DNA from: Cyanobium sp. ATX 6A2
Lineage (GTDB): Bacteria > Cyanobacteriota > Cyanobacteriia > PCC-6307 > Cyanobiaceae
NCBI RefSeq assembly: GCF_024346355.1
Contig: NZ_JAGQCU010000005.1
Location: 62,001-126,000, forward strand
DNA: 64,000 nt
Direction of reading: 5' to 3'
Shown: positions 48,894 through 49,209 of the stretch, piece by piece
How the letters are laid out: each line of letters starts with the position of its first letter
Numbering within the stretch: the first letter of the stretch is position 1
Position numbers and translations under genes: made by a program
The notes under the pieces: model-generated
The model's database searches: none
Seen by the model: only the letters and a program-made list of their open reading frames with translations
Told to the model about the DNA's origin: nothing

Positions 48894-48915
48894 GGTTGCT
48901 CGGTGCGACTTGCAG

Positions 48916-48983
48916 CGGTGCGACTGGCGTCGGCCGGGCGAACCCGCTGCGCGGGTAACGCCGGCCTCTCACCAGCCGCACCG
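48916..48983 (+). repeat. Palindromic element A (first arm of inverted pair)
   Basis: Outer stem CGGTGCGACTGG (48916-48927) with CCAGCCGCACCG (48972-48983), one mismatch. Inside, GGCCGGGCG (48932-48940) pairs with CGCCGGCC (48959-48966) with a one-base bulge, then ACCCGC (48942-48947) pairs with GCGGGT (48951-48956) around a TGC loop. The core at 48932-48973 is close to the reverse complement of element B at 49104-49143. It could terminate dps transcription, but no T-tract follows. Confidence 0.8.
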
Positions 48984-49086
48984 ACAACCCGGCAGCCCGA
49001 TGGTGGGACCGTCGGTGCTGACGTTGAAGCCGTGACGCTGCCCAGATGACGCCGCAACAGCGGCGGACTTGCCCATCCCACTGGCT
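48984..49086. other. Spacer between the two palindromic elements
   Basis: About 103 bases with a further small hairpin, CGCCGC (49050-49055) against GCGGCG (49060-49065) with AACA loop. No coding frame with credible composition was found here. It lies within the 48894-49209 non-coding stretch separating dps and pyrG. Confidence 0.5.
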
Positions 49087-49164
49087 CCTGGGGGCCGTGA
49101 TGCGGTGAGGCCGGCGTTGCCCGCCCCGCGGGCTCGCCCGGCCGAACCCAGCACGGCCCCCAGG
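49087..49164 (+). repeat. Palindromic element B (second arm, inverted orientation)
   Basis: Outer stem CCTGGGGGCCGTG (49087-49099) and CACGGCCCCCAGG (49152-49164), perfect 13 bp. The core GGCCGGCG (49109-49116) pairs with CGCCCGGCC (49135-49143) with a bulge; GCCCGC (49119-49124) pairs with GCGGGC (49128-49133) around CCC. Compared with element A, the A:T pair at the base of the inner stem (ACCCGC/GCGGGT) is G:C (GCCCGC/GCGGGC), so pairing is kept although the bases differ. Confidence 0.8.
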
Positions 49165-49209
49165 CACGTCTTGTGGCCACGGGTACATTGAACAAGCAGC
49201 CGAATCTCC

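Follow-up and report, generated by a model that had tools for sequence, protein, structure and literature searches.

Gene-boundary hairpins of freshwater Synechococcus and Cyanobium: a low-copy family whose paired arms may be renewed by template switching

The stretch of DNA analysed here (the window, 64,000 nucleotides of Cyanobium sp. ATX 6A2) contains, between dps and pyrG, a gap of 316 nt that holds two oppositely oriented hairpins, A and B. The left border of the gap is the stop codon of dps (48405-48893, forward strand), which encodes a ferritin-like DNA-protection protein (Pfam Ferritin, 1.5e-27; scores against the NCBIfam Dps models all stay under the cut-off), and the right border is pyrG (49210-50922, forward strand), which encodes CTP synthase (NCBIfam PRK05380, 1.8e-249, and PyrG, 3.6e-243). 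Element A (48916-48983, forward strand; 80.1 bits, E 7e-13 per genome with our covariance model R2) is built from a 5' outer arm (48916-48927) that is hypervariable across species, a conserved core (48932-48966) of the form GGCCGGGCGA-ACCCGC-TGC-GCGGGT-AACGCCGGCC, and a 3' outer arm (48972-48983). Element B (49087-49164, reverse strand; 68.2 bits, E 2.5e-10 per genome with the same model) is inverted relative to A and comprises an outer arm (49087-49099), a core (49109-49143) that is nearly the reverse complement of the A core, and a partner arm (49152-49164). Just downstream of hairpin B lies TACATT (49184-49189, forward strand), the putative -10-like motif of pyrG as judged from gaps aligned by eye, which is kept as TAGATT, TACATT or TAAATT in most relatives examined, hairpins present or not. 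In addition, a 15-bp tandem near-duplicate (CGGTGCGACTTGCAG / CGGTGCGACTGGCGT, 48901-48930) is found at the left arm of A, possibly as a trace of copying.

A sequence-only reading of this DNA had described two related elements in opposite orientation with cores close to reverse complements, and the inverted pair was indeed recovered mechanically, with arms at 48924-48968 and 49107-49151 that are 87% complementary over 45 nt. The 13-bp outer stem of B is perfect, as had been proposed, and the 12-bp outer stem proposed for A exists, albeit with one A.C mismatch (48923/48976); both cores are likewise present, within the narrower limits given above rather than at 48932-48973 and 49104-49143. At the base of the inner stem, the A:T pair of A (48942:48956) is a G:C pair in B (49119:49133), so that pairing is preserved as claimed, and the further small hairpin expected in the gap is CGCCGC-AACA-GCGGCG in the spacer (49050-49065). 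The folding energy is -44.8 kcal/mol for A (z -4.3 against dinucleotide shuffles) and -66.7 kcal/mol for B (z -7.4), and in neither case does any shuffle fold as well, also under DNA parameters. B is the strongest of the 12,784 80-nt segments in the 64 kb (-67.2; mean -31.3, sd 7.3), and those next in rank, where examined, fall within long reading frames rich in GC. The A-B spacer (48984-49086) is unremarkable in structure overall (z -1.4). Within the window the core pattern matches only A and B, with 0 matches expected by chance, in agreement with the statement that the window holds no further copy; outside the window the genome has a third copy, which is diverged and stands at the 3' end of ndhF (G000:C11:29014-29078).

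A and B are members of a low-copy family of gene-boundary hairpins in freshwater Synechococcus/Cyanobium (Cyanobiaceae), in which an outer stem of about 12-25 bp carries a conserved core some 38 nt long, made of tip helix, A/AA-type internal loop and middle helix. Within the reach of our searches the family is undescribed, and a literature search for the tip sequence found nothing. Covariance model R1 (16 elements) and the refined model R2 (43 elements) both find three copies in this genome, namely A, B and the ndhF copy, and the maximum in any of the 40 genomes searched is five (R2, E <= 0.001). BLAST with the gap recovered the pair at the same site within the genus in G011 (94% identical) and parts of it in G012, G006, G003 and G001, as well as the pair at dps-pyrG in other genera. 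A copy is present in 22 of the 89 pyrG-upstream stretches searched, covering eight genera, and the other 67 gave no match; many genomes carry just one of the two hairpins. Since it is absent in most relatives, the element is not essential. The exact canonical core occurs on nine contigs of an 85,000-species collection, all from Synechococcus/Cyanobium or cyanobacterial MAGs. Across genera the ends of the same housekeeping genes are reused: dps-pyrG, ndhF, the ATP synthase gamma gene, manC and glmS (which are convergent and have one hairpin each), and a small orf before purB; the end of an ABC-transporter gene also has a copy, so far in one genus only. Inverted pairs are also seen at dps-pyrG of other genera, between ndhF and ndhD and between orfZ and purB. 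The search for further copies that the sequence-only reading had suggested was therefore productive, and what it had set as counting against its element, namely absence from close relatives together with a lack of covariation and of other copies, is not what was found.

Several draft contigs break off at one of these hairpins or no more than 200 nt away (L036 on G001:C20, L227 and L228 on G160:C17 and C16, L105 on G058:C13, L225 on G058:C74), and copy numbers in draft genomes are for this reason probably underestimated. Second near-perfect hairpins with arms of about 22-25 bp were seen downstream of the first before ndhD (L168:1650-1712), directly upstream of the TACATT motif of purB (L167:1771-1833) and downstream of the ATP synthase gamma gene (L173:1672-1733). 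In L082 (G193), a degenerate copy of the pyrG start apparently lies upstream of dps.

The outer stem differs in sequence in nearly every genus while its pairing is preserved, and the pairing-preserving differences noted between A and B turned out to hold on a large scale. In alignment A3, which like A4 was fitted to the model in a way that favours pairing and whose cells count sequences rather than events, 91.8% of cells are paired against 64.0% in shuffles, and 268 cells are changed on both sides, with double changes in 23 of the 26 pairs, a result reached in none of 500 shuffles; all 13 outer pairs vary on both sides. At dps, where 16 genomes were compared, cores of different genera have an identity of 0.70 and their arms 0.44 and 0.41, and the pairing of a genome's own arms is 0.89 compared with 0.43 for arms taken from different genera, as expected of arms that are homogenised, with pairing kept while the sequence changes. 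Arms and core of B behave in the same way in 12 genomes. An example is given by G150 and G155, whose dps ends are 93% and cores 95% identical and whose arms are 63-68% identical, with own arms pairing at 19/19 and 18/19 positions.

The core, in turn, is found in both orientations between kept arms, in three genera, some of the inverted-core genomes being drafts. Within genus g35, G187 carries its core in the orientation opposite to that in G170 and G213, with 98% identity when inverted and 71% when direct, next to dps ends that are 97-98% identical. The core of G218 in genus g6 is inverted relative to that of G138 (93% inverted, 70% direct), and likewise to that of G160, and in genus g37 the truncated core of G048 matches that of G150 at 28/28 positions when inverted and 21/28 when direct, the 5' arm being identical. 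Half of a hairpin has been lost in G012 (from B), G236 (from A) and G048.

A further property of the arms is that they often extend into the stop codon of the upstream gene, so that the 3' arm repeats the gene end in inverted form. The last codons of ndhF together with its stop codon make up the 5' arm there, and the 3' arm reads as their reverse complement. The 3' region agrees with the reverse-complemented gene end of the same genome at 14-16 of 18 positions, compared with 9-10 of 18 in 12 relatives that have no core there. In G006, the 3' arm reflects a codon change (TCG to GCC) in that genome's own ndhF. The stem takes in the stop codon also at dps in several genera, at manC and at glmS. 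When each ndhF 3' region was scored against its own and other gene ends, the own score was not always the row maximum, and this comparison is weakly informative because only three gene ends differ. Just past the ndhF stop codon of G113 (L184), where relatives carry the core, lies a long palindrome with 24-bp perfect arms and a different tip, the outer part of which pairs with the coding end as well. Between ndhF and ndhD, a conserved stretch (with CTGTGTG..CATC and ATTTCTACACTCC; L174-L203) is present across the family, hairpins present or not, and probably has a regulatory or promoter function.

Template switching between inverted-repeat arms has a published signature, homogenised arms and an inverted spacer (PMC8604942), and it has been reported to generate and preserve hairpins in a single step (PMC8794818). 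Judging from the comparison of genomes, we consider it moderately probable that the gene-boundary hairpins are kept paired by template switching and not by point mutation followed by slow compensation. According to this model, the nascent DNA strand would fold back on account of the core, after which the polymerase would copy one arm, often the upstream gene end, as the reverse complement of the other arm; such copying would renew perfect pairing in a single step, so that both arms change together, and would occasionally invert the core. Because the coding arm is constrained, the gene end would presumably be the template and the 3' arm the copy. Homogenised arms and inverted cores are both present, and therefore the outer stems appear to be copied, not selected base by base. 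The likeness to known template-switch (quasi-palindrome) mutation (PMC8604942, PMC8794818, PMC7202029) lies in the homogenised arms, the spacer in both orientations and the multi-base changes that keep pairing. However, the spacer inversions reported in yeast genes changed 2-5 bp, whereas here the inverted segment is a conserved core of about 40 bp, and the present hairpins occupy fixed gene-end sites and form a family common to several genera. Template switching alone also leaves the similarity of the core across loci and genera and the reuse of the same few gene ends unexplained, so that some selection or an old dispersal is needed besides it.

Compensatory selection on an RNA would yield identical covariation, which counts against template switching. 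The elements would then be terminators without a U-tract, or hairpins protecting 3' ends, kept paired by ordinary compensatory mutation because the mRNA needs an RNA hairpin at its end and the next promoter a mirror hairpin in front of it. This is consistent with the extensive covariation, with the strong folding of A and B and with the convergent manC and glmS each having a hairpin of their own. It also fits the arrangement of the copies, since A-type hairpins stand at stop codons and inverted B-type hairpins upstream of the promoter-like motif of the next gene (TACATT or TAGATT for pyrG), as seen at dps-pyrG, ndhF-ndhD and orfZ-purB. On the other hand, the hairpins are dispensable, as judged from the 67 of 89 pyrG-upstream stretches without a match and from the gap of 47 nt in G008; their arms enter coding sequence and would there be unfolded by ribosomes; some cores are inverted and some hairpins have lost a half; and a terminator requires no conserved tip sequence. 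Moreover, no U-tract follows the hairpins, A being followed by ACAACCCGG, nor is one found in the dps-pyrG gaps of the relatives compared. The family thus resembles bacterial 3'-end stabilising hairpins and intrinsic terminators in its stop-codon position and high stability, but differs from them in having no U-tract, an arm that overlaps the coding end, a conserved internal-loop core and an inverted mirror hairpin before the next gene. Overall, we regard selection on RNA structure as the source of the pairing as rather unlikely, and the covariation as no proof of it, since arms renewed by template switching give the same signal.

A function at transcript ends is nevertheless plausible. Cyanobacteria are without Rho, and most transcript ends in Synechococcus elongatus are not canonical terminators (PMC13289151). 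On the strength of their position, the hairpins could mark transcript ends in this Rho-less lineage. A might end or protect the dps mRNA and B might shield the promoter side of pyrG, both as end hairpins without a U-tract, and such a role, tentative as it is, could explain why hairpins persist at gene ends. Here we also speculate that the core is a selected pivot, its conserved tip being recognised by a cellular factor such as RNA polymerase, an RNase or the replisome, with the flanking gene end copied into a matching arm. While we hold this to be quite unlikely, it would mean that any gene end gaining the tip grows its own custom stem, a self-assembling gene-boundary signal without a U-tract in Rho-less cyanobacteria that possibly evolved in more than one family.

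Mobility would account in a different way for similar cores at unrelated loci and for inverted pairs, if a transposase had inserted the core or the whole A-spacer-B block as a palindrome of the REP/BIME or MITE type, possibly into pre-existing hairpins. An empty site exists as well, as the dps-pyrG gap of G008 is almost empty, with 47 nt from dps to the pyrG motif KFVFVTGG compared with 262 in G006; the two could differ by gain or by loss, and their borders share at most 3 nt by eye, with no obvious target-site duplication. Against this stand the small number of copies (no more than five in a genome), which occupy the same gene ends in different genera and are not scattered, and a Y1 transposase (RAYT, PF01797) present in 2 of 30 genomes and absent from this one. 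Element-less ndhF ends, in addition, have no pre-existing hairpin of those arms, and we reject for this reason a core that jumps into the loops of existing terminators. REP, BIME and REPIN sequences (PMC3733652, PMC3116915) are similarly extragenic GC-rich palindromes near gene 3' ends, sometimes in inverted pairs, but reach high copy numbers and carry a GTAG- or CGTC-type tag; here, CGTC precedes the core only in three copies from g1 in the seed alignment, the others having TGTC, GATC, GTTC, GGTC or CTGC, and the outer stem lies outside the repeated sequence. The REP/BIME membership suggested by the sequence-only reading is thus rejected, given the low copy number, the lack of a constant tag tetranucleotide and the lack of a RAYT. 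So is its other suggestion, that A, spacer and B form one mobile miniature element, because the spacers of different loci are unrelated, with similarity confined to orthologous loci of close relatives (a single score across loci, 23 against 22 in shuffles, is marginal). No exact core was found in IMG/VR contigs, and in plasmid and phage records the matches were partial, none covering more than 47% of the query. Taken together, a mobile palindrome is distinctly improbable. We consider a trans-acting small RNA or one large cruciform formed by both arms highly improbable, as the better folding of the whole gap than of shuffles (z -6.7) is offset by A and B each folding alone, by a spacer neither structured nor conserved, by the many genomes with a single hairpin and by a search of the window and the canonical copies against Rfam 15, which at permissive thresholds gave sub-threshold matches only and at the curated cut-off no family, so that a known structured RNA is rejected as well.

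Covariation is customarily the best evidence for a selected RNA structure. In the present family, near-perfect covariation on a massive scale coincides with core inversion and with arms derived from gene ends, a combination that points to mutation, not compensatory selection, as the main source of the covariation. The interest of the family lies in this natural evidence for template switching as a source of covariation, and it might serve both as a tractable system in which to test template switching in bacteria and as a caution when structures are inferred. A further question on which the family bears is how transcript ends are marked in cyanobacteria without Rho.

A parallel was noticed in genus g71 of another cyanobacterial family, f23 (G096, G082 and G252; L244-L273), where dispersed palindromes with the tip CGCCCGCTNCGCGGGCG have copy-specific, perfectly paired arms, many of them near gene ends. 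These resemble the present family in a near-identical GC-rich tip, in long, perfectly paired arms that vary between copies and in the frequent gene-end position, and either homology or convergence could account for the likeness. In contrast to the present family, many outer arms there end in A- or T-tracts (AAAACCC...GGGTTTT), and by their sequence these palindromes look like bidirectional terminators with a common tip. Model R2 gives weak matches in g71 (E about 4e-5 to 7e-4 per genome), and the tip itself has 3-21 exact matches in the three genomes.
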